Source of the DNA: Sedimentibacter sp. MB31-C6
GTDB lineage: Bacteria > Bacillota > Clostridia > Tissierellales > Sedimentibacteraceae
DNA: 64,000 nucleotides
Reading direction: 5' to 3'
Assembly (NCBI RefSeq): GCF_035934735.1
Contig: NZ_CP142396.1
Span: forward strand, 1,116,001 to 1,180,000
Part shown: positions 13,068 through 59,825 of the stretch, piece by piece
How positions within the stretch are numbered: position 1 is the stretch's first letter
How the letters are laid out: each line of letters starts with the position of its first letter
Made by a program: the position numbers and the translations under genes
The notes under the pieces: model-generated
Databases searched by the model: none
Told to the model about the DNA's origin: nothing
The model's input: only the letters and a program-made list of their open reading frames with translations

Positions 13068-16000
13068 TTATCTGTTTACTTCTAGGAATCTCTGTAGTAT
13101 TACAGCTGTTTCTGCCCTAGTGGCATTACCTTTTGGAGCAAGGGTAATTTCTCCTCTTCCTTTAATTAACCCTACTTTGACTGCCCACTGCATCGCAGGC
13201 AGTGCATATGGTGATATCAAATCAGTATCCTCAAATTCAGACAAATCTGCTCCTGTATCTACTGCACCATTGTTTTTATATAGGTAATATCTAAAAAGAA
13301 TTGTTGCTAACTGCTCACGAGTTATGCTTTCATTTGGACCGAATTTTGTTTCACCGATACCTAAAATAATATTATTTTGTTGAGCCCATGCCACGGCATT
13401 ATAGTAATAATCACCGGGCTTAACATCAGCAAAATTGCCGTTCAAATCTAATGGCTGATTTTCCAATCTATGAAGTATTGTAACAAGCATACCCCGTGTA
13501 ACTAATAATTCAGGTTCAAATGTATATGTATCTGTTCCAATCATTAATCCGTTTTCTATTGCAAATTTAACTGCATCATAGAACCAATCAGTCTCATTTA
13601 CGTCTATAAATAGATTTATATAATTCTTCTGCATATTGTCATCCTTCGGGTTATCTGAATTATCTTTGTCATCATCTTGATTCTCTCCTATGTACACTAC
13701 ATCAAAAGAATCACCCTCACTGTTAAAAGCAAATGTTTGAATAAATGTTTCTTCACCATCTAAAACTAAAGATGCCTTATCACCAAATTGCTTTGTTTGA
13801 ATTATCCTACCACTCTCACTCTTTAAGTTTACCACTATATTTCCACCTATTAATTCATTCATGGAATTATTCGTAAGCTCAACCTGCACGGATGTCTGAC
13901 CTGAATGAGATTTCATCCTGCTTGTTAGGGAAACACTCTCCATGTTTTTGCTGATAAGTCCTATTATTTTAATATAGTCCCAGTTATTGGATATATTTGA
14001 ATCTTCAATCTCTTCACTATCTTCTTCTATAACTGTTTTAAAAAATATCCGAGCTCCATCATCAGGTATCTCGCCTTCCTCATTAAGTATACCTTGCAAC
14101 GCTTCCTCATCTAACAATATATTCTTACTGAACATACCATTATTAATCATATCAAGAGAATTTGCATCACTTATTGTTTCTGCTACAATGGGCTCGGCTT
14201 CAGGATCAGAATCATCATATGCATAAAGCTTAACGACGTGTTTTCCTTCTTTCAACTCTGAAAAAGTGTTATTGTGAAGCATTACACTAAACATTCTCTC
14301 TCTATCTGCTTCCTTGACAACATCAATACCATATATGCCCACATCAGGAACATCCAATTTTATCGTACCTGTAACTGTATCCGTATCCAAAGACGGTGAA
14401 TACTCTGCAGTAATGGAATATGCAGGGTCTATAATAATCTCGGGAACTGAGTAAAATATATTGATATCCTTATATTGTCCAGGCATTATATAATCATCCT
14501 CTTCAAATACGTGAACTACTTCTCCAAAATTAATACTAACACTATTAATTGGTTCAATTCCTCTGTTATAAAGGCGGAACATAAAAGGCATTTCATTGCC
14601 GGGAAGTATTTCATTACGAGAATAATAAACTTGTTCAAGAGATAGCTTATTTGAATATTCTGACTGTCCATAAATTATGTTGCTATACTCTTTTTCTGTA
14701 TTATAATCGGTTGTTTGAAGTATAAAACTGATTTTTCCTGCATTTTCAACATGTGCATCATAGAAATCTATTAAATTATTATCATCAAGTTTTAAAAGCT
14801 TGATTTCTGGAGAAATCATAATTTCGTCTTCTTGAAGTGAAAACTTCCTTCCCCATAATGCATGGCTGTAATTATCTTCGGTATCAAATTCCGGTTGAGC
14901 CCAAACAATTGACAAATCCTGTAGCTTTTTTGAGCCTTTTGTGAACTTGAAATAACTGTAATCCGCTGTATCAGAACCTGCAATTTCATTGTCAAAGTCA
15001 GTATAAACATTTCCATTTCCATCAACAGCTGTAACTCTTATTATACTTTTCCCCATAGTATCTTCAGTTTCTGCTTCCATAAATGAATTCCATCCTATAA
15101 CAAAGCGCTCTATTTCATCAGGGAATTCTATAGATGTTATTTGTGGATTTTCATTTCTTTTTTCGTTGTTACTTAATCTTATATTTTTTAATATATTACC
15201 GTCATCACCAATTATTGCGCAAAATATTTCAGTATTGTCAGTGCCATCCATTGTTATCTCATATGTAATGGCAGACGTTCCGTCTGAAAGCATCTTTGTA
15301 TTAAGAGTATTCAGCATTTCAACGCTTCCGTCATACAAGCATTTCTCATCACTCCATTCACTGCCATCAAATATCTTGTACATTATATTATCCCTACCGT
15401 CAAAGCTCAAAGGACTATCCATATCAACCATATCCCCCGAATAGAAGTTTCTCCATGCAACTATGGTTTTTTCTCCGTTTGAAGCAACTACAGGAGACAT
15501 ATCTGCAGTAGAATTGTCAGTCAGACGTGTTGTAATAAATTCAGAGCCATTATATATACCCGCCATAATTTCTGTGCTTGAAATCATATTTTGAATATCT
15601 TCTAATGTTGCTTCACTTCCCTCGCTTAGCTCCATATCCGTTATAACTCGCGTCCATGCTACTGCCGCACAGTCAGTTGTACCATCAATCACTACATCTG
15701 TATCAGCATAGCCAGAATCATCTATTTTTGTACCTTCAGGAAATATTCCCCCTGATTTTACTGAAAAGCATACAGATGTTTGATTTAAGTCATAGCTATC
15801 CATATCTGATATATATACCATCAGCTCCCCATCAGTACTTAAAACTGGATTTGAATATGGATAAGAATTTGATTGAAGAACAATTATGCCTCCTGCTAAG
15901 GAGCTTCTTGCCATATGTGAATTCCAATTTCTTTCATTAGATAAATATGATCTGTCTTCAAAAGTTGCCTGCTTGTTACATTCATCACTATTTAATCCCA

Positions 16001-19000
16001 TATATTTATCTAATACTAAATTATACTTAATAGTATCGTATTGTTTTTTTATGTCATTGTAATTATTGAATTTCCATGTCTTGCTTCCTTCTCCTATTTC
16101 ATAAGTGCCTTCAACATTAACAAGAACAAGTTTTATTTTGTATTCAATTCCTGTTTCACCTGCCAATGTTATTTTTTGACCATTACTGTTTTTTTGTTCA
16201 CTCTTAAGCCACAGATACTGTTGGTCAAGTGATACTTTTCCGTAAACTCCTGCCTTTAAGCTCACTATTTTATAATCACGTCCAACGCCGCCAAACCCTC
16301 GAATATAAATGTATGGCTGGAACTCTGTTATATATGTACTACCTTTACCGCTTCCTTCAGATACTGTCTTTAAATTCAGTTGTCCTGTCCCCCCTGCCAA
16401 GAACTCTGCTGTTACTGGAACTGGTCCTATCCATGTATTGTATATTTTTTTATAATGATAACCCCCTCCTACATGCATGAATGATTGCAACACAACAATT
16501 TTCCACTCGCTGTCATCAATATCATAAAATATCTCACAGTCAAAATATGCCCCCCCGCCGTATATTTTACTGTTAGACCCATATCCACCCATATAAGCAT
16601 CCATAAATATTTTACTGTTACCTATAAAATCACTGTTATATATTTCATAGTCAGGCATATAGTCATACAGGAGCGATACCTTTTCGTCCCTACTGTACAC
16701 TCCCGACTTCATGTACTTACTCATCTGTCCAACTCCCATCATTATAACCCCTTTAAATATTAGGGGGTCATCAGTAGGAGTTATTTCAAGCCGCAATTTA
16801 TCAGAATCTACAGAAAATCCACTTAAATAATTAAGAGATGTTTTAATATAATCAGCTTTGCCATCAGAATCTATCATAGATGGTCCATTAATAGAATTTC
16901 TAACGTCCTGTCTAATTTTATTAAGTTCACCTGTTTCCAAAGTACTTAACTTGTCTACGCCATTTATTCGACTTACATTATGAACTGATGGGAGATTTAT
17001 AATCTCAAGTCCCTCATCACCTTTAACAGTTATTTGCATGCTTAAATTTTTTACCTCACCAAACTCCAAATTAGAAACATATTGCTGCAAATCAAAGGTA
17101 TTTTTAATTGATATGGTATCAGAAAATTCATATGACTCAACTTCTGTGTTTAAAGAGTCAACAAGAGCGTTGCTTTTTCTATCTAAAAATCTTACATTAT
17201 AGTTATTGTCTGGGTTACCCTTAAAAACCATGTCAGTATTTATATATGCTGATTTTGATATGTCTTCAATAATAATATTTTCAGGTACATCTATTATATT
17301 TTCTCCCAAAATAAGCTCCTGAGAAATTATGCTAATATCATTATTAATTTTGGAGTTATCACTGCTTTCTAAAAATATTGTTCCTGCAGGAACAGGAGTA
17401 TCGTAGTATTTTTTAAAAAATCGTATAGTTTCGTTATCTACCTTCATAAACTTTGAAAAATAGCCAGATATACCTATTTCGAAAACATATTCTATTTTAT
17501 CTTCAGAAGTAATAGGAGTATCATATTTGTCATTAACGAATTGATTCTGGTCGAACTTCAATATATATCCATAGCCGGTCTTTTTTACTATCTGTTCTTC
17601 TTGTCCGTTTTTTCCATTAATTGTTGCACCAGGACAATATATTCCGTTTCTGTATACTCCGCCTCTAATTGTTACATCACCTTCATGCAGGAATTTTCTT
17701 CCTTTCGAATCAACACGCCATACATAGAATATTGTTTCATAATTAGATTTTTTAAAAACAATATTGTTTTGAGGATACAATCCTAAATGATTTGTACTTT
17801 GCTGCATTGATTTTAATTCATTATTTTCAAGTATAAATTTATCATACAAATCAGTGTTTTCAGGTGTAAATATTATATCTCCTTTAATACCTGATTCCTC
17901 AAATATAGCAATTCTTCCTTTTTCATCTGTTTCAACTTCCTTGTAGCTGCTATCACCATTTAGATAGAATACTTTGCTCTTTTGTGCAGGATATACTTGA
18001 AATATGAACAGCTTATCCCTCGCATTATCAACAGTAACTTCGATTTTCTCTTCCATACCTGTCAAATTATGTGAAACTGTTATGTATGTCTTTCCTGGTG
18101 AAAGTCCTTCAAGTAATAATTGCGCATCAGGTGCAACTAAAATATTTTCATCTATGTTACTTAATAATCCCCCATCCTTATACTTAAGTGACAGCATGCT
18201 ATCATTTTGTACTAACCACTTTGTTTTATCAAACAATCTGCTCCACTTGTATTCATCATAATTAATATTTATTTCATCCGTTAAAGTTATATTTCTGTTA
18301 AGATTTAAGATTTCTTCGCTTGACATATCTTTCAGTACATTATCCAAACTCATTGTATGGCTTTCTTTTTTAACTCCGTTAATACTTATTTTAAGTGCAT
18401 CAGAATTATAAACATACATAATATACGAATCATATGAATAAGCTTCATCATATTCATTTTTTACCTTAAGTGATACCATGTATGTATCATATAAATTTAA
18501 GACAGGCACTTCATCCATATCAACCCGAATATCCTTTGCCCTATCAGATATACTATTCTTAGTAATTATAGTATTACCATTCTTTGTTACATTCAGCATA
18601 ACAGATGTATCGGAGTTATAATTATCAACATCAAAGTTTACATTAAAACTTTCAATTTCATCTGTTATATAATAACTGACTGGCTTGCTCAACATTGCTT
18701 TTGCAGGTAAACTTTTAACTCGTATAAATGCTGATGTTGTAAATACCATATCAGTTTTTAAATCTCTTGTAGATAATTCAAGTATGTAACTGAATTTTCC
18801 TCTTTCGGATACATTGCTTAAATATTGCCTATCCACTGAATAATACAATTCTTGATTTTCAGCAGTGAAGTTTTTTGTATCACTAACAACTAAATCACCT
18901 TTTTTAATTTCACCTGCTTCATATTCAACTTCATATAATTTAAAAAAGAATGTGGTTGCTGCTGTTTCATTATTAGCAGGAATGTTCGTAGAGTAATAAA

Positions 19001-21239
19001 CCTTGGCATCATTTCCTTTGACTATCTCAACGTTTTTTGACCACCCGCTTACATTTAAAAACACCTCATTAGTATCAATTACTTGTAGAGTATTACTATA
19101 TAAAGTAAATTTTTCATCTGGTTGTCCTGAGTTTAAAGCAGTTAAAGAAAACCTTACACTCCCCGGTTTCCCGGTTAATGAAATTGCTCCTGAAGTTGTT
19201 ATTGATGCAACTATATTGTCGCTTGCCATCCACTCAAAATCCTCTAACTCCTGCCATGTAGCATTGTTTTTAACGTTGTATCCTAATGAAATTAATTCAA
19301 CACTGTCAGAAGATATTTTATTTTCCACAGGCCAATTCTCATACACAATTTCTACGTCGGATTCATCATCAATATATATAATTTGAGGCAATATATATTG
19401 CTTTGACAACAAATATATCAAGTTAAAATTGTTAGTTTCGTTTTCATCAAAATAAATTTCAGCTACATAATTTGTATCTGATATTAAAGAACTTACAGGT
19501 GCAATAAATTTTCCTCTAAGCTTAGTAATTAAGAGTTCATCATTAGCATAAAGGTCAACATCAACAGCAGTTCCGTTCTCTCCTATTACTCTTGCCTTGA
19601 CTGTTTTTATACGTCCATCATCCGTTTTATGTGAAGTCAGATATTCAGAAAGCTCCTCATTTACTTTGAGAGAAAGATTTACTTCAACCTCAGCATTCAT
19701 GCTCTTACCCTGACTAACCTTTATATCTGTTTCAGCACAATAAGAAAAGAGTTCCTCTATGGTGTATGATTTAAGTTTAGTATTTGTAATTTGATTGCTG
19801 TAGGACATATTTTCCTGTTCATTACCAGATAAATCAATTGCACCTGTTACCTCATCTATATTAATCAAATCATTAAAATCAGCACCTATCTCATACAAAA
19901 AGCTCACATCTTCTGAAACTGTCCCATCTCTTTCAACAGGATACAAAACAGTATCATTTGCCTTTAAACTTATATTGTCTAACAAAACAGCTTCGTTAAA
20001 TGTAACGGTAATAGGTATATTCTCTCCTAAATAATATTCTCCTGAAGGCGCAGTAACATTTACAAGACATGGTTTGATTTTATCCTCAAAAGTCATCTGA
20101 TTTTGAACATAATTACCATCCTTATCATGAAACAATGTATATATATCACCGTTTATCATTGAATAGTTCAAATTAATGTCTATGGATTTAACAGCATCGT
20201 TTGCTTCAGAATTACGACCCAGTCCTAAATCACTCAATAAAACATCATTGCAATCAAAATCTATTATATTTTTTCCATCTATGGAAGCGCTCAAATCTAA
20301 AGCATTATTTGAGAAGGTAGCATAATTATTATCGATTTGCAAATTAGCTTCCCCTGTTGCATATGATTCATTTAAAAAATATACTGTAGGTAAATTCAGA
20401 TGAGAAAAAGTACCTGTATCTATCATTTTTCTAACATCCGCTGTTATGGCAGATGATGTTGCGATACTTATAGTGTTATTTATGTTAACATATTTGCCTA
20501 AAGTATCAGGAAAGCTTTCAGCATTTTTGATCTTCGAAATATCAGCCATATATACACTAGCCGCCCTTTCATATATCTGCTTAAGATTAAGAGCATTTTC
20601 AATCCTAACAGGAATAGTCATCACTTCTTTATTATTTTCAAATAAAGCATTGCTGACACCGTAGCAGCTAATATAAAATACTCTATCACCCATCCAAAGG
20701 TCTCCATATTCTGAAACTCTTGGATTATCAGCATCGTAATTATTGTTAATCTTAGGAATTTTAAACTCTAAGTTTTTTTCAACTTGTCCTGCTGTAAATG
20801 TGACACTACCATTTACAACCCCTTCATAATGTTTATAAAAAAATGCACTTCCTGAAAATATTTTATAATCAAAGGATACATCTCTGTCATTTGAAGAATT
20901 TAACTTAAATGTAATTATAGCTGTTACATCATCATTAGTATCAGTACTTATAGATTCATTAATTTCATAAGATACCCGTGCTTCAAAATTATATTCAGAA
21001 GGTGAGATAACGATATCCTCATCTGTAATTGAATACAGTCCTATACCTTTATTGTTAAGTTGTTCAGTCAAGGATTTCAATGCTGTGTCATGAGCAGGTA
21101 AATGTAATTCATAACCTAAATGATTAGTATCTAAATAATCAATATTGGTATAAGCAAAACCAGAAAACGAACTAAGAATAATACATAATAATAGTATAAT
21201 GCTTATAACTTTGTTTGTTTTTTTAACATAGCATTTCAT
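13068..21239 (-). CDS. Giant S-layer-homology surface protein (2,723 residues)
   Basis: A very large exported protein with a signal peptide (residues 1-29, VISIILLLCIILSSFSGFAY). Residues about 65-190 resemble a Calx-beta domain; about 390-440 and 660-740 resemble bacterial Ig-like domains (LGENIPITVTFNEAV; ITTSGAISLTGKPGSVRFSL), with another near 1020-1075. Residues about 1500-1700 are a Gly/Tyr-rich beta region. About 1780-2200 is a beta-propeller-like region with repeated SNGEKTIVAWR-type strands. About 2215-2360 contains two CARDB-like domains. Three SLH domains close the protein (about 2545-2723), with the LVTRG, SITRE and NATRAE signatures. SLH domains bind pyruvylated secondary wall polymer, so it sits on the cell surface. 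No catalytic motif was recognised. It follows the tetR gene by 38 bases, probably in one transcript. Confidence 0.92.
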   Translation of the reverse strand: MKCYVKKTNKVISIILLLCIILSSFSGFAYTNIDYLDTNHLGYELHLPAHDTALKSLTEQLNNKGIGLYSITDEDIVISPSEYNFEARVSYEINESISTDTNDDVTAIITFKLNSSNDRDVSFDYKIFSGSAFFYKHYEGVVNGSVTFTAGQVEKNLEFKIPKINNNYDADNPRVSEYGDLWMGDRVFYISCYGVSNALFENNKEVMTIPVRIENALNLKQIYERAASVYMADISKIKNAESFPDTLGKYVNINNTISIATSSAITADVRKMIDTGTFSHLNLPTVYFLNESYATGEANLQIDNNYATFSNNALDLSASIDGKNIIDFDCNDVLLSDLGLGRNSEANDAVKSIDINLNYSMINGDIYTLFHDKDGNYVQNQMTFEDKIKPCLVNVTAPSGEYYLGENIPITVTFNEAVLLDNISLKANDTVLYPVERDGTVSEDVSFLYEIGADFNDLINIDEVTGAIDLSGNEQENMSYSNQITNTKLKSYTIEELFSYCAETDIKVSQGKSMNAEVEVNLSLKVNEELSEYLTSHKTDDGRIKTVKARVIGENGTAVDVDLYANDELLITKLRGKFIAPVSSLISDTNYVAEIYFDENETNNFNLIYLLSKQYILPQIIYIDDESDVEIVYENWPVENKISSDSVELISLGYNVKNNATWQELEDFEWMASDNIVASITTSGAISLTGKPGSVRFSLTALNSGQPDEKFTLYSNTLQVIDTNEVFLNVSGWSKNVEIVKGNDAKVYYSTNIPANNETAATTFFFKLYEVEYEAGEIKKGDLVVSDTKNFTAENQELYYSVDRQYLSNVSERGKFSYILELSTRDLKTDMVFTTSAFIRVKSLPAKAMLSKPVSYYITDEIESFNVNFDVDNYNSDTSVMLNVTKNGNTIITKNSISDRAKDIRVDMDEVPVLNLYDTYMVSLKVKNEYDEAYSYDSYIMYVYNSDALKISINGVKKESHTMSLDNVLKDMSSEEILNLNRNITLTDEININYDEYKWSRLFDKTKWLVQNDSMLSLKYKDGGLLSNIDENILVAPDAQLLLEGLSPGKTYITVSHNLTGMEEKIEVTVDNARDKLFIFQVYPAQKSKVFYLNGDSSYKEVETDEKGRIAIFEESGIKGDIIFTPENTDLYDKFILENNELKSMQQSTNHLGLYPQNNIVFKKSNYETIFYVWRVDSKGRKFLHEGDVTIRGGVYRNGIYCPGATINGKNGQEEQIVKKTGYGYILKFDQNQFVNDKYDTPITSEDKIEYVFEIGISGYFSKFMKVDNETIRFFKKYYDTPVPAGTIFLESSDNSKINNDISIISQELILGENIIDVPENIIIEDISKSAYINTDMVFKGNPDNNYNVRFLDRKSNALVDSLNTEVESYEFSDTISIKNTFDLQQYVSNLEFGEVKNLSMQITVKGDEGLEIINLPSVHNVSRINGVDKLSTLETGELNKIRQDVRNSINGPSMIDSDGKADYIKTSLNYLSGFSVDSDKLRLEITPTDDPLIFKGVIMMGVGQMSKYMKSGVYSRDEKVSLLYDYMPDYEIYNSDFIGNSKIFMDAYMGGYGSNSKIYGGGAYFDCEIFYDIDDSEWKIVVLQSFMHVGGGYHYKKIYNTWIGPVPVTAEFLAGGTGQLNLKTVSEGSGKGSTYITEFQPYIYIRGFGGVGRDYKIVSLKAGVYGKVSLDQQYLWLKSEQKNSNGQKITLAGETGIEYKIKLVLVNVEGTYEIGEGSKTWKFNNYNDIKKQYDTIKYNLVLDKYMGLNSDECNKQATFEDRSYLSNERNWNSHMARSSLAGGIIVLQSNSYPYSNPVLSTDGELMVYISDMDSYDLNQTSVCFSVKSGGIFPEGTKIDDSGYADTDVVIDGTTDCAAVAWTRVITDMELSEGSEATLEDIQNMISSTEIMAGIYNGSEFITTRLTDNSTADMSPVVASNGEKTIVAWRNFYSGDMVDMDSPLSFDGRDNIMYKIFDGSEWSDEKCLYDGSVEMLNTLNTKMLSDGTSAITYEITMDGTDNTEIFCAIIGDDGNILKNIRLSNNEKRNENPQITSIEFPDEIERFVIGWNSFMEAETEDTMGKSIIRVTAVDGNGNVYTDFDNEIAGSDTADYSYFKFTKGSKKLQDLSIVWAQPEFDTEDNYSHALWGRKFSLQEDEIMISPEIKLLKLDDNNLIDFYDAHVENAGKISFILQTTDYNTEKEYSNIIYGQSEYSNKLSLEQVYYSRNEILPGNEMPFMFRLYNRGIEPINSVSINFGEVVHVFEEDDYIMPGQYKDINIFYSVPEIIIDPAYSITAEYSPSLDTDTVTGTIKLDVPDVGIYGIDVVKEADRERMFSVMLHNNTFSELKEGKHVVKLYAYDDSDPEAEPIVAETISDANSLDMINNGMFSKNILLDEEALQGILNEEGEIPDDGARIFFKTVIEEDSEEIEDSNISNNWDYIKIIGLISKNMESVSLTSRMKSHSGQTSVQVELTNNSMNELIGGNIVVNLKSESGRIIQTKQFGDKASLVLDGEETFIQTFAFNSEGDSFDVVYIGENQDDDKDNSDNPKDDNMQKNYINLFIDVNETDWFYDAVKFAIENGLMIGTDTYTFEPELLVTRGMLVTILHRLENQPLDLNGNFADVKPGDYYYNAVAWAQQNNIILGIGETKFGPNESITREQLATILFRYYLYKNNGAVDTGADLSEFEDTDLISPYALPAMQWAVKVGLIKGRGEITLAPKGNATRAETAVILQRFLEVNR

Positions 21240-26706: not shown

Positions 26707-27348
26707 CTATCTAAATTTATTGTTGTTATTATTGTTTTTATTGTTATCAAACCTATTATCATTTTTGTTTTCAAAATTATTTCTATTATTAGATTTATTT
26801 TGATTGTTATTATCTTTATCTTCAAACCTATTATTTAGTTCAAATCTCATGTAACTATTTCTATTAACTAAATCGTCATTATTTCTAAACTCATTATTGT
26901 TGTTTCTATTGTTATTTCTTAACTCATTGTTATTTCTATTGTTATTTCTGTCTCTAAATTCGTTGTTATTATTGTTTCTAAATTCATTATTGTTTCTATT
27001 TCTTAATTCATTATTGTTAATATTTCTTAATTCACTTTTATTATTGTTTCTTAACTCGTTGTTATTGTTGTTTCTTAACTCATTGTTATTAATGTTTCTT
27101 AATTCATTGTTATTGTTGTTGTTTCGTAATTCATTGTTTCTAAAATTATTATTATTGTTATTTTGATTGTTTTTATAATTATTTATCATGTTTTTCTGCT
27201 GTTCTCTAAAACTTTGCTGACTGTCTAAATTAACTTGATCCTCCCAATTTTTCATTTTTTCATTAATGTCATTTTTATTTTTGTTTTGATTATTGTTAAA
27301 ATTCTTTATAGTAATCATCCCTTCATAATTGATATATTGTAATTGCAT
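26707..27348 (-). CDS. Asn-rich low-complexity protein with octad repeats
   Basis: A 213-residue predicted protein, roughly half asparagine. After a mixed N-terminal part (EKMKNWEDQVNLDSQQSFREQQKNMI) come ten imperfect repeats of about eight residues with the core [NS]E[LF]R[ND] followed by Asn runs (about residues 70-155), then an Asn/Lys/Arg-rich tail. No signal peptide, membrane helix or known domain is visible. Net charge is near neutral with alternating Glu and Arg. The frame is open over 642 bases and a strong terminator follows, so it is probably real. The start is unsure: ATG 27348 has no good ribosome site, and ATG 27318 has GAAGGG directly adjacent. Composition resembles prion-like domains; function is unknown. 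Confidence 0.6.
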   Translation of the reverse strand: MQLQYINYEGMITIKNFNNNQNKNKNDINEKMKNWEDQVNLDSQQSFREQQKNMINNYKNNQNNNNNNFRNNELRNNNNNNELRNINNNELRNNNNNELRNNNKSELRNINNNELRNRNNNEFRNNNNNEFRDRNNNRNNNELRNNNRNNNNEFRNNDDLVNRNSYMRFELNNRFEDKDNNNQNKSNNRNNFENKNDNRFDNNKNNNNNNKFR

Positions 27349-56596: not shown

Positions 56597-56624
56597 TTGA
56601 CTTTAACACATAAACGTTTATAAT
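56597..56624 (+). promoter_or_regulatory. Sigma-A promoter of the hydrogenase-phosphatase cassette
   Basis: TTGACT (56597-56602), 16 bases and TATAAT (56619-56624), 38 bases before the first gene. It diverges from the rho promoter. Confidence 0.65.
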
Positions 56625-56662
56625 GGAAGTAAGCTTAACTAATTTATAATCAGAGGTATAAA

Positions 56663-56917
56663 ATGGTCGAATTAAGCATTTGCGTGGGAAGCGCATGTCA
56701 TTTAAAAGGTTCTTATGAAGTTATAGAAATATTTAAGAAGTGCGTAAGAGATAGAAATTTATTTAACGAAGTGGAAATCAAAGGAGCATTCTGTCTTGGT
56801 CGCTGCACAGAGGCAGTTTCTGTTATGTTCAATGATAAAATTTATTCTGTTAATCCAGAAACAGCTGAAAGCTTTTTCAATGATATTATTATTAAAAGTA
56901 TGAGGAATTTAACATGA
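56663..56917 (+). CDS. NuoE-like thioredoxin-fold [2Fe-2S] ferredoxin
   Basis: An 84-residue redox protein with the thioredoxin-like 2Fe-2S fold of NuoE and clostridial ferredoxins. The cluster ligands are Cys 7, Cys 12, Cys 44 and Cys 48 (CVGSAC and CLGRC). It is the fold alone, without the N-terminal helical part of NuoE. Its last codons overlap the start of the sensory hydrogenase by four bases (ATGA), so the two are translationally coupled, and it probably passes electrons to or from that protein. A GAGGT ribosome site precedes the ATG. Confidence 0.9.
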   Translation: MVELSICVGSACHLKGSYEVIEIFKKCVRDRNLFNEVEIKGAFCLGRCTEAVSVMFNDKIYSVNPETAESFFNDIIIKSMRNLT

Positions 56918-58629
56918 GAATACTAGATTTTTATCCTACTAATTGCAAAAATTGTTATAAATGTGTAAGAAATTGTTCTGTTAAGGCTATTAAAATGATT
57001 AATGACCAAGCCCAAATCGTTGAAGAAAAATGTATTGCTTGTGGAAAATGTGTTTTGGTATGCCCTCAAAACGCAAGAAATATTCATAGTGACTTGGATA
57101 ATGTTTTAAATGCCTTTAATAATGGAAAAAAAATCATTGTATCTATTGCACCGTCATATATTGGTGTTTACGAAGAACCATATAAACTTATATCTGCTTT
57201 AAAATATTTAGGTGTTCATTTAATAGAAGAAACAGCAATTGGTGCTGAACATGTATCAAATCTTTATAAGGAATACTTAGAAAAAACTAATTTAGAAAAT
57301 GCTATAACAACTTGCTGCCCTTCAGCTAATATGATGGTACAAGCATATTACCCAGAACTTATTAAATATTTAATACCATTAGACTCTCCTATGATTTTTC
57401 ATAGTAAAATGATTCGAAAACGTCACGGAAATGATGTGTATATAGTTTTTTTAGGTCCTTGTATTGCTAAAAAATGCGAAGCTTATAAATACCAAATTTC
57501 CGGAATTATAGATGCTGTAATTTCCTTTGAGGAACTCGATAAATGGTTTGAGTCCAAAAATATTGATATTTCTTCTTTTGAAGAAACTCATCCCGACCTT
57601 GAAGGTAACTTCGTCGGTAAAAAATATCCCTTACATCAAGGTGTGTTGTCAGGTATGAATGATGTATTGCTTGAAAATAATTTTACTCCAATATCTGTGT
57701 CAGGAACAGATGATTTGATAGGGGTATTTGAATCTATGTCTAAGGGAGACTTGAACAATGTATGCATTGAAGCTAATACCTGTATAGGTGGATGTATCGG
57801 AGGACCAGCCGTCCCCAAAAAAAGTAAAAATGTTTATGTAAGAAAAACTAATGCTAAAATTAAAATTGAACCTTCAAAAAAACATAAATATAAAAACTAT
57901 ACCTCTGAAGAAAAAAATTTAAATTACACTAGAAATTTCAGAAACAAAGAATATATACTCCCTCCATATACTGAAGATGAAATAAGAAAGATTTTAGAAA
58001 AATCGGGAAAACATTCAGAGGCTGATGAACTAAATTGTGGCGCATGTGGATATGATACATGTAGAGAAAAAGCTATATCAGTAATAGAAGGTCTATCACA
58101 CCCTCAAATGTGTATGCCTTACATGAGAAGTGAGGCAGAAAAAATATCAAATATATATTTCAAATATTCACCAAGTGTAATAATTATTGTAGATTTAGAT
58201 TTGAAAATACTAGATTTAAACCCTTTAGGCGAAGAAGTCTTTAAAACTAAAATTAATAATATACGAGGTAATCATGTTTCATCAATAATTCCTTACAATG
58301 ATTTTAAAATAGTTTTAAGTACAGAAGAAAACATTATTGGTAAAAAATTATCTCTTGATAATTATGGTGTAATTATGAATGAAAGTATTATATATCTCCC
58401 TAAAAACAAAATACTATTCTGTATATTAAACGACATTACTACTGATGAATTTAAAAAGGAACAAATTATCAGCATGAAGCTTAATACTTTAGAAACAGCT
58501 GATAGGGTAATTGAGAAACAAATGAGAGTTGCACAGGAAATCGCAGGTTTATTAGGTGAAACTACTGCTGAAACGAAGGCAGCTCTTCTCAAGCTTAAAA
58601 AAGTTGTGTTAGAGGAAAGTGAAGACTAA
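56914..58629 (+). CDS. Sensory [FeFe]-hydrogenase-like protein with Fes and PAS domains
   Basis: A 571-residue protein. Two [4Fe-4S] ferredoxin motifs come first (Cys 11, 14, 17, 21 and Cys 40, 43, 46, 50). The hydrogenase large-subunit domain keeps all H-cluster Cys: TTCCPS (134, 135), LGPCIAKK (183) and NTCIGGCIGG (290, 294). The L2 and L3 loops differ from catalytic enzymes (MPCTAKK and GCxNGGG elsewhere). A 4Fe-4S Fes domain follows (CGACGYDTC, Cys 375, 378, 383, and Cys 400), then a PAS domain (about 405-500) and a C-terminal helix. No small subunit, no membrane anchor. Group C/D (HsfB-like) sensory hydrogenases combine such parts. It probably senses H2 or redox state and signals to the overlapping phosphatase gene. 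Maturases (HydEFG) are not in the window. Confidence 0.92.
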   Translation: MRILDFYPTNCKNCYKCVRNCSVKAIKMINDQAQIVEEKCIACGKCVLVCPQNARNIHSDLDNVLNAFNNGKKIIVSIAPSYIGVYEEPYKLISALKYLGVHLIEETAIGAEHVSNLYKEYLEKTNLENAITTCCPSANMMVQAYYPELIKYLIPLDSPMIFHSKMIRKRHGNDVYIVFLGPCIAKKCEAYKYQISGIIDAVISFEELDKWFESKNIDISSFEETHPDLEGNFVGKKYPLHQGVLSGMNDVLLENNFTPISVSGTDDLIGVFESMSKGDLNNVCIEANTCIGGCIGGPAVPKKSKNVYVRKTNAKIKIEPSKKHKYKNYTSEEKNLNYTRNFRNKEYILPPYTEDEIRKILEKSGKHSEADELNCGACGYDTCREKAISVIEGLSHPQMCMPYMRSEAEKISNIYFKYSPSVIIIVDLDLKILDLNPLGEEVFKTKINNIRGNHVSSIIPYNDFKIVLSTEENIIGKKLSLDNYGVIMNESIIYLPKNKILFCILNDITTDEFKKEQIISMKLNTLETADRVIEKQMRVAQEIAGLLGETTAETKAALLKLKKVVLEESED

Positions 58630-59795
58630 TGGAACGATTTTTAGATATTAATTACAAAAGCATAAATAAATATGGAGAAGAACTTTGCGGAGACAATGTA
58701 GAATTCATCAACAGTGATAATGGTTGTATAATAGTTTTGTCTGATGGCTTAGGTAGTGGTGTTAAAGCGAATATTTTAGCAACAATGACTACTAAAATTG
58801 CTGTTACTATGCTTGAAAATGATGCTACAATAGATGATACAATTGATACAATAATAAATACACTTCCTGAATGTAAGATTAGAAAACTAGCTTATTCAAC
58901 TTTTACAATAATCAAAATAGATAATGATTATAATGCTTATATTGCAGAATATGATAATCCACCTTACTTTTATTATTCTAATAAAAAAAGTATGCCTATT
59001 GAAAAAAGAGAAAGAATTATAGATTCTAGAAAAATTTACGAGTCCAATATTCAACTTAAATTAGGAGATACTCTTTCTATCGTAAGCGATGGTGCTATTC
59101 ATGCTGGTATTGGTCAAATGCTTAACCTAGGATGGTCATGGGATGAAATTAATAACTATTTAGAGGATCTTAACAATGTAAATCGTTCAGCACAATTAAT
59201 TAATGGTAACTTTATAGGTGTTTGCAATAATTTATACAACAATAAACCTGGTGATGATACTACAATCCTTACTATTAAGGTAAGAATGCCTGAAATATTA
59301 GATATATTTATTGGTCCTCCTGCAGATAAACAATCGGATGCCATTTTAGGACAAATAATGAAATCAAGTGAAAATATGAAAATTATATGTGGAGGAACTA
59401 CTGCATTAATTGCTGAAAGGGAATTAGGCAAAGAACTTCAAGTGGACCTTGATTCTATTAAAGACGATGTTCCGCCATTAGCATATATGGAAGGCTTTAA
59501 TCTTATTACTGAAGGTGTATTAACTCTTGGTAAAACACTAGAAAATATTAAAAAATGTAATAAGACTAACTTTGAAGATTTAGTAGACTTTGATGATTAT
59601 GATGGCTGCTCACTACTAACAAAGTTTTTAACTGAAATAAGTACACATATAAATTTTTATATCGGACATGCCGTAAACCCTGCTCATCAAAACCCAAATT
59701 TTCCTACTAGCTTCAATATTAAGCAAAAAATAGTAGATGATCTTATAAAAGAATTGAAAAAAACAGGGAAAAAAATCACTACAACATATCTATAA
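58629..59795 (+). CDS. SpoIIE-type PP2C serine phosphatase
   Basis: A 388-residue PP2C-family phosphatase of the SpoIIE kind. The catalytic domain fills residues 1-215: CGDNVEFINSDNGCIIVLSDGLGSGVKANILATMTTKIA holds two metal-binding Asp, and LSIVSDGAIHAGIG and NKPGDDTTILTIKV hold further metal Asp residues. A second domain follows (about 220-385) with GPPADKQSDAILGQIMKSSENMKIICGGTTALIAERELGKEL, of unknown function. It has no membrane part, unlike SpoIIE proper. Its ATG overlaps the hydrogenase stop by one base, so it is almost surely the output of that sensor. Its target, perhaps an anti-anti-sigma or other phosphoprotein, is not in the window. A strong terminator follows. Confidence 0.9.
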   Translation: MERFLDINYKSINKYGEELCGDNVEFINSDNGCIIVLSDGLGSGVKANILATMTTKIAVTMLENDATIDDTIDTIINTLPECKIRKLAYSTFTIIKIDNDYNAYIAEYDNPPYFYYSNKKSMPIEKRERIIDSRKIYESNIQLKLGDTLSIVSDGAIHAGIGQMLNLGWSWDEINNYLEDLNNVNRSAQLINGNFIGVCNNLYNNKPGDDTTILTIKVRMPEILDIFIGPPADKQSDAILGQIMKSSENMKIICGGTTALIAERELGKELQVDLDSIKDDVPPLAYMEGFNLITEGVLTLGKTLENIKKCNKTNFEDLVDFDDYDGCSLLTKFLTEISTHINFYIGHAVNPAHQNPNFPTSFNIKQKIVDDLIKELKKTGKKITTTYL

Positions 59796-59796
59796 T

Positions 59797-59825
59797 AAAA
59801 CAACTCCTTTTTGGAGTTGTTTTTA
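59797..59825. terminator. Bidirectional terminator, phosphatase and glpX
   Basis: AAACAACTCC pairs with GGAGTTGTTT over a five-base T loop, flanked by A and T runs. It serves the phosphatase gene and the convergent glpX gene. Confidence 0.88.

Follow-up and report, generated by a model that had tools for sequence, protein, structure and literature searches.

What is a hydrogenase-like protein for when its gene overlaps that of a protein phosphatase? The question is raised by a three-gene cassette at positions 56,597–59,825 of a 64,000-nucleotide stretch of the Sedimentibacter sp. MB31-C6 genome (contig NZ_CP142396.1, positions 1,116,001 to 1,180,000), hereafter the window. The cassette encodes a small NuoE-like protein (HfsA-like), a putative sensory [FeFe]-hydrogenase (HydS, or HfsB) and a SpoIIE/PP2C-type phosphatase (HfsC). 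Judged from the sequences, this arrangement is best read as a sensor of redox state or H2 that is coupled to a phosphatase. More specifically, we lean towards an hfsABC-type sensory module, in which the redox or H2 state of HydS would switch HfsC, which would then act in a hydrogenase/fermentation redox circuit. H2 partial pressure helps to set the output of fermenting bacteria, i.e., acetate and H2 versus ethanol and lactate, and deletion of hfsB has already been used to raise ethanol yield; the link sought here is the substrate of HfsC.

A Putative Hydrogenase-Like Sensor and a Phosphatase in Overlapping Genes

All three genes lie on the forward strand. The hfsA-like gene (56663..56917; 84 amino acids, aa) overlaps hydS/hfsB (56914..58629; 571 aa) by four bases, and hydS overlaps hfsC (58629..59795; 388 aa) by one base; these open reading frame (ORF) coordinates agree with the overlaps given in a first-pass annotation of the DNA. 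With families assigned by domain search, the order hfsA, hfsB, hfsC is found. The first protein is a NuoE-like thioredoxin-fold [2Fe-2S] ferredoxin (PF01257, 28.9 bits against a cut-off of 24.8), of which only the second half of the profile (positions 67–138 of 145) is matched. HydS is a PAS-bearing putative sensory [FeFe]-hydrogenase of the group C type (PF02906, E 6.2e-47), and HfsC carries a PP2C/SpoIIE catalytic domain (PF07228) followed by an extra C-terminal domain. This pairing is nearly universal among the best relatives: among the best 80 of at least 582 confirmed HfsC candidates in the genome collection, HydS is encoded directly upstream of the phosphatase in 78, and in 77 of these 78 the two genes overlap or lie within 41 bases. 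Of the two remaining loci (loci and genomes are designated by L and G numbers), L081 is truncated by the contig border and L121 genuinely departs from the pattern.

HydS begins with two [4Fe-4S] motifs (residues 8–54; 56935..57075; Fer4 matches), in which Cys 11, 14, 17, 21, 40, 46 and 50 are present in 74/74 aligned sequences and Cys 43 in 66/74, the other eight having Asp. The H-cluster domain (H-domain; residues 72–300; 57127..57813) contains the cubane ligands C135, C183, C290 and C294, which are invariant wherever aligned among 79 sequences, and the proton-relay residue C134. Here and below, the PubMed Central (PMC) sources are cited from excerpts. In TmHydS and TamHydS, the proton-relay Cys (C299 of CpI) has been reported to be replaced, mostly by Ala (PMC10407848). 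The window protein keeps it, unlike the replacement expected for group C; across the 79 sequences, position 134 is occupied by Cys (37), Ser (15), Ala (14), Phe (4), Thr (3), Asn (1) or Tyr (1), with four gaps. Because of this variability, replacement of the proton-relay Cys is not group-defining in this sample. All five cysteines singled out by the first-pass annotation (134, 135, 183, 290 and 294) are therefore present, the last four being the invariant ones, and the altered L2 and L3 loops described there are likewise found. L1 reads TTCCPS, L2 LGPCIAKKCE and L3 EANTCIGGC (EANTCIGGCIGG), and the two group A methionines, M353 and M497 of CpI, which are named and given a role in PMC8163306, correspond to Gly181 and Asn288 by a motif-position mapping made in this analysis.

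Behind the H-domain follows a C-terminal [4Fe-4S] site (C375, C378, C383, C400; 58030..58119), matched over threshold by PF04060 (E 3.1e-8, residues 373–402). All four cysteines are kept in 78/78 aligned sequences, and their spacing is exactly the Cx2Cx4Cx16C motif given in PMC8163306. The PAS domain (residues ~405–525; 58126..58488) is sub-threshold in the window protein itself (PAS_4, E 0.16), and a search of 29 aligned family members with PF00989 gave matches at E <= 0.01 in 24; both the added Fes cluster and the PAS domain that had been annotated can be retained. In an H-domain tree, the window protein groups with PAS-bearing HydS proteins, apart from group A, group B and a PAS-less type (FastTree support for the split, 0.995). 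The tree labels derive from architecture and, for some members, from family scores, in a tree built without the TmHydS and TamHydS references; the PAS-less type joined group B (0.68) instead of group C, with which the literature associates Group D.

Conservation in HydS peaks neither in the H-domain nor in the PAS domain, but behind the latter, in the C-terminal tail (residues 526–562; 58489..58599; core QMRVAQEIAGLLGETTAETK) with its motif LLGETTAETK. The mean majority fraction over 79 sequences is 0.81 for the tail, 0.70 for the C-terminal iron–sulfur (FeS) site, 0.62 for the N-terminal FeS region, 0.51 for the H-domain and 0.44 for the PAS domain. Q536, I543, A544, L547, G548, E549, A552 and K555 are identical in 79/79 sequences, T550 and T554 in 78/79 (one Ser, one Ala) and T551 in 76/79. 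In distant HydS proteins, the tail is recognisable and altered—LGxSTAxSEE or LGANTAKSEE in L139–L142, LGEATAETK in L157, LGETAAETK in L143, LGRSAAETS in L158, LGENTAKGE in L159, IGESTAQGE in L160 and LGEHMVETE in L121—and the Thr pattern is lost in some of these members. The tail is a likely output element and the obvious candidate for the part of HydS that would touch HfsC or be phosphorylated.

The host genome (two contigs, 3.02 Mb, 99.57% complete) encodes HydF, HydG and HydE in one cluster (L042 5069–8798), with 562, 937 and 594 bits, respectively, all far over the cut-offs; the H-cluster can thus be made. The first-pass annotation had suggested that its reading be judged by these maturases and by H-cluster binding; all three are present and the ligands are kept. 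The genome also carries a group B hydrogenase (L040) and two group A HydA genes (L039, L041) with neighbours that resemble NuoE and NuoF by eye.

The cassette is preceded by a promoter-like site, TTGACT-16-TATAAT (56597..56624, forward strand), with 11/12 matches to the consensus. Promoter-like sites in the region number 20 versus 22.2 in shuffled sequence, i.e., they are not in excess, so the site at 56597 is supported by its quality and position only. An intrinsic-terminator-like hairpin of 11 pairs with a T-rich tail follows hfsC (59797..59823, forward strand); four sites of such kind occur in the region versus 1.0 expected. The single promoter and single terminator that had been annotated are compatible with these signals. 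Directly behind hfsC, no hfsD was found in the window, and neither adhE nor a catalytic hydrogenase gene lies beside the cassette; the next gene is on the opposite strand and is presumably of the glpX type. Elsewhere in the window, the reverse strand encodes a 213-aa Asn-rich protein with repeated NNNELRNNN-type units (26707–27348), without a match in NCBIfam, and a 2723-aa ORF (13068–21239) whose C-terminal end resembles S-layer homology repeats by eye.

The Phosphatase and Its Unplaced C-Terminal Domain

The catalytic domain of HfsC covers residues 1–221 (58629..59291), with PF07228 matched on residues 30–219 (52.5 bits, cut-off 25). The PP2C-motif residues D22, D39, D154, D209 and D210, which presumably form the metal site, are invariant in 63/63 sequences; HfsC is therefore probably active. 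It does not qualify as the SpoIIE sporulation phosphatase described by TIGR02865 (27.6 bits, cut-off 490.8).

Residues 222–388 (~165 aa; 59292..59792) form a C-terminal domain with the motifs GPP, CGGT, PP, TEG and NPAHQN. Thirteen of its 167 positions are invariant (versus 28 of 221 in the catalytic part), among them GPP, the GG of CGGT, the PP pair, the EG of TEG, T299, G346 and N350/H353 of NPAHQN. No convincing match to this domain was obtained in profile searches of Pfam, NCBIfam and PDB, and a limited literature search found no description of it, which does not imply that none exists. The earlier view of a PP2C/SpoIIE enzyme with an extra domain that cannot be placed thus holds.

None of the candidate folds that came up is convincing. 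The best PDB profile hit was 3trj, a phosphoheptose isomerase (E 0.09). Pfam searches with whole phosphatases, whose matches come without their position in the protein, gave CCDC117 (0.0012, 7/63 sequences), DUF1846 (0.0037, two), NBD_C (0.027, three) and DUF2000 (0.065, four); with the C-terminal domain alone, the best E value was 0.043 in Pfam and 0.011 in NCBIfam (2/31 members), with gmhA at 0.12 in one. HHalign comparison with self-built profiles yielded 14% for NBD_C (30 sequences) and 0.2% for SIS_2 (23/24 sequences usable), set against control profiles of PP2C (6%), the H-domain (2%) and PAS (0.2%). NBD_C may serve as a weak lead, extending over 38 columns around GGTTA...LG...PxxP.

The domain was matched in 122/398 sampled genomes of the phylum and also occurs on its own. 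Five short frames were examined (G407, G438, G488, G533 and G670, from a larger number that included G556, G620, G665, G403 and G319), of which G533 proved to be a frame-shifted phosphatase gene and G670 ends at a contig border. The other three, from one genus, are stand-alone copies of 156–159 aa (L152 8622–9101, L153 8944–9414, L154 8598–9074), each encoded immediately after a hydA-type gene and flanked on both sides by hydCBA-type sets. They are diverged, with GPA and with CGSS or CGAS in place of the corresponding motifs, and NPAHQN is absent.

Distribution and Gene Neighbourhood

HfsC relatives are present in 86/291 sampled genomes of the class. The closest phosphatases in the genome collection are three with 76–78% identity, among them that of Sedimentibacter hydroxybenzoicus (76%), in a search from which records very near the window were possibly left out. 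An HfsA-type gene lies 1.6–2.7 kb upstream of the phosphatase in 66/73 loci with room for it. Of the 73 loci with room downstream, 29 have an HfsD-type hydrogenase as the next gene after HfsC and 44 do not; 17 of these 44 encode some other hydrogenase within 6 kb. HydG was matched more often in genomes with HfsC (72/86) than in those without (110/205), a comparison uncorrected for kinship.

Rex-like clusters occur in 8/81 loci of the neighbourhood set and AdhE-like ones in 5/81; these were named by eye, and a family search confirmed rex and adhE in L252 only. L252 (5775–14728; G200, a genome without a STAS match) presents rex, adhE, an APH/RIO-like kinase gene, two NuoE-like genes, hydS, hfsC and an hfsD-type gene in one stretch. 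The kinase gene, for which APH/RIO-like is a family name only and implies no drug resistance, recurs in six loci (L252, L133, L126, L258, L119 and L255; 72–100% identity), some beside adhE- and rex-type genes, with L105 at only 23%. As a general partner it was dismissed: it is not seen near the window cassette and is not general. At L068 (4207–7995), two tandem HydS genes, whose products share 46% and 43% identity with the window protein, stand before one HfsC.

A Possible Association with HydABC and an RsbW-Like Kinase

Three HfsC genes without an adjacent HydS were found, L048 (G096), L251 (G121) and L121, and all are located beside hydCBA-type genes. A HydB-type gene is in view in 17/81 loci of the neighbourhood set. 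At L121 (4027–13514), HfsC has two paralogs: the first is accompanied by HydS and by an additional hydrogenase gene, and the second, on the other strand, heads the series HfsC-hydC-hydB-hydA-NuoE-like (names by likeness). At L048, HfsC is followed by a DRTGG gene, an RsbW-like kinase, a PAS-less HydS, a second DRTGG gene, PHP and hydCBA. The host genome of the window contains the DRTGG-RsbW-HydS-DRTGG-PHP set without HfsC near hydCBA (L039 16340–19417; C1:188340–191417), including the gene of a PAS-less [FeFe]-hydrogenase-like protein (411 aa; 17388–18623) that carries an FeS domain in its C-terminal part; a gene set nearby is, we assume, Rnf-like. The RsbW-like gene (encoding the 141-aa protein of L039) occurs in 139/291 genomes of the class, and in each of nine listed loci, a DRTGG-sized gene and/or a PAS-less hydrogenase flanks it by eye. 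A histidine-kinase-like ATPase beside TamHydS has already been reported (PMC8163306); a limited literature search by titles gave no link between DRTGG and hydrogenases, which does not imply its absence.

The HfsC–HydABC link is suggestive, coming from these three cases, picked out post hoc, together with the stand-alone domain copies next to hydA-type genes in one genus. One might go further and envisage two opposed arms, PAS-bearing HydS with HfsC on the one side and PAS-less HydS with the RsbW-like kinase and DRTGG on the other, both acting on HydABC or a protein bound to it, with the HfsC C-terminal domain docking HydABC. We regard this extended scheme as improbable; if true, it would account for three features: single copies of the domain following hydA, HfsC genes that lack HydS and adjoin hydCBA, and the gene run of G096.

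Proposed Mechanism and Alternative Explanations

The sequences show the gene order, the domains, the conserved ligands and catalytic residues, the maturases and the hydrogenase linkage; the signalling steps that follow are inferred, as is what the tail, the C-terminal domain and the target would do. HydS would bind an H-cluster made by HydE, HydF and HydG. Its redox state would be set by H2 or ferredoxin via the N-terminal FeS clusters, the small NuoE-like protein perhaps taking part. This signal would then run through the C-terminal [4Fe-4S] site and PAS to the conserved tail and switch HfsC, whose gene overlaps that of HydS by one base. HfsC, in turn, would dephosphorylate a protein of the hydrogenase/fermentation redox circuit, with its C-terminal domain probably selecting the target or binding a small ligand. 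The target is most likely tied to the electron-bifurcating HydABC or its regulators, and a STAS anti-anti-sigma factor would not be obligatory.

Several observations weigh against this sensory module or its connection to HydABC. The spread of HfsC is patchy, as 0/12 other sampled genomes of the order to which the host belongs were found to carry it. In 27/73 loci with room, and also in the window, the neighbourhood lacks a further hydrogenase gene. A HydG match at E <= 1e-100 is absent in 14/86 HfsC genomes; 13 of these loci were inspected (all except that of G248), HydS could be aligned for 11, and the four cubane cysteines are kept in 11/11, with L251 lacking an adjacent HydS and the HydS-like frame of L256, which overlaps the phosphatase beyond the limit of the filter, falling outside the alignment. 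Since several such loci carry hydA-type genes (L139, L141, L142 and L251), the misses are probably threshold or assembly effects. As to HydABC, the cases are few and were chosen after the fact; the hydCBA genes of L251 run convergently to HfsC on the opposite strand, outside its operon, and L121 harbours a second, divergent HydS–HfsC pair ~1 kb away on the other strand. Co-occurrence of the RsbW-like kinase with HfsC is not significant (49/86 versus 90/205, Fisher p 0.053, or 0.36 when restricted to HydG genomes), and presence over the 291 genomes gives no support to it as an obligate partner, which was dismissed.

How do other explanations fare? The classical one is partner switching, in which HfsC, like RsbU/RsbP or SpoIIE, would dephosphorylate a STAS anti-anti-sigma factor and thereby free a SigB/SigF-type sigma factor. 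The host genome has two STAS genes, unlinked to the cassette, each adjoining a HATPase kinase gene and one pair next to a SigB/F/G-type sigma factor, and STAS (PF01740) was matched in 50/52 well-assembled HfsC genomes. However, G200 and G244 (98 and 100% complete) carry HfsC without a PF01740 match, in a search that did not extend to PF13466 (STAS_2) genome-wide. For HATPase_c_2, these two genomes yield weak best matches (E 1.1e-4 and 8.6e-5), and they are presumably the two below the cut-off that 50/52 exceed. When the 40 ORF clusters that recur most often near HfsC were viewed by eye, none resembled STAS or RsbW, and two other well-matched SpoIIE-type phosphatases in the host genome can serve those STAS switches. 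With PF01740 matched in 50/52 genomes and not in G200 and G244, a partner-switching target is possible in many hosts and not obligatory, and we consider this explanation unlikely for HfsC; the STAS partner for which the first-pass annotation had proposed a search is not required. As a separate observation on the host's STAS genes (L043 7047–8134, L044 5858–7324), a SpoIIAA/SpoIIAB-type pair is followed after 344 bases by what we take to be a SpoVAC-like gene, leaving no room for sigF; the SigB/F/G-type sigma factor is located elsewhere, beside the second STAS/RsbW-like pair near presumably gyrase-like genes.

Two further explanations start from HydS itself. The tail could be a phosphoprotein element in which a cellular kinase adds phosphate to Thr 550, 551 and 554 and HfsC takes it off again, so that phosphorylation reports or locks the sensor state. 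The near-invariance of these residues in the best-conserved segment fits this, as does the retention of Ser/Thr in the tails of the divergent HydS of L139–L142 (HfsC 25–27% identical). Yet tail conservation equally fits a docking or dimerising element, single positions are lost in distant HydS proteins (EATAET in L157, ETAAET in L143, RSAAET in L158, EHMVET in L121, Gly at 554 in L159 and L160), and there is no constant kinase neighbour, so that we give this possibility little credence. Alternatively, HydS might be a low-rate catalytic hydrogenase subunit with the phosphatase as a passenger, the effects on ethanol being metabolic. That HfsABC is possibly a functional hydrogenase without HfsD was raised in PMC13277313, and the proton-relay Cys at 134 is kept here and in 37/75 aligned sequences. 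Against it stand the near-universal HydS–HfsC pairing among the best relatives, the conservation peak in the tail behind PAS and not in the catalytic domain, and L2 and L3 loops devoid of the two group A methionines; it appears equally unlikely.

Redox- or H2-controlled dephosphorylation by the HydS–HfsC pair stays the preferred explanation. The substrate question is narrowed, with STAS not obligatory and a target that may well be tied to hydrogenase genes. Three testable leads are added: the tail of HydS and the C-terminal domain of HfsC, both small enough for direct tests, and the possible link to HydABC.

Comparison with Known Systems

With SpoIIE, RsbU and RsbP, the window phosphatase shares the PP2C-type catalytic domain, and RsbP also takes PAS input. 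In the window, however, PAS and phosphatase are on separate chains, an extra C-terminal domain is present and no STAS partner is nearby. Group D TamHydS of Thermoanaerobacter mathranii has the C-terminal Cx2Cx4Cx16C motif in common with the window HydS but lacks the PAS region found here, which places the window protein outside Group D; a better counterpart in this genome is the PAS-less 411-aa protein beside the RsbW-like gene (L039).

Closest in organization is the hfsABCD operon of Thermoanaerobacterium saccharolyticum, whose HfsA we take to be NuoE-like as well. PMC11837493 describes this protein otherwise. The likeness lies in the small first gene, the PAS-[FeFe]-hydrogenase, the Ser phosphatase and the identical order (PMC5707799, PMC11837493); the difference lies in the lack of hfsD behind hfsC in the window, with a group B hydrogenase elsewhere in the genome (L040). 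Deletion of hfsA or hfsB in T. saccharolyticum raises ethanol ~1.8-fold, while deletion of hfsC or hfsD does not, and wild-type hfsC and hfsD are needed for the hfsA/hfsB phenotype (PMC5707799). The group C HydS of Ruminococcus albus has been published as an H2 sensor; it has a PAS domain and is accompanied by a putative Ser/Thr phosphatase subunit, and co-transcription with genes for hydrogenase and alcohol dehydrogenase is described. The sensor–phosphatase proposal was made in that rumen study (PMC6776011). The window differs in that adhE and a catalytic hydrogenase gene are absent beside the cassette.

In HydDB, group C3 is listed as "Phosphatase-linked (putative)", the class for putative sensory [FeFe]-hydrogenases that go together with a Ser/Thr phosphatase (PMC5037454). 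The window protein shows the features of this group—four cubane cysteines, Cx2Cx4Cx16C, PAS behind it, an adjacent phosphatase gene and a tree position among PAS-bearing HydS—and differs in the Cys at position 299 (CpI numbering), the assignment being made by features and tree, not by the HydDB classifier. The first-pass proposal that H2 or ferredoxin redox state is converted into dephosphorylation therefore stands as the best reading, given the maturases and the kept ligands; as a new idea it does not, because the same hypothesis is already in print for group C3 and HfsABC. The gene set is common in fermenting bacteria and has been described before: hfsABC without hfsD, an ordinary member of its family.

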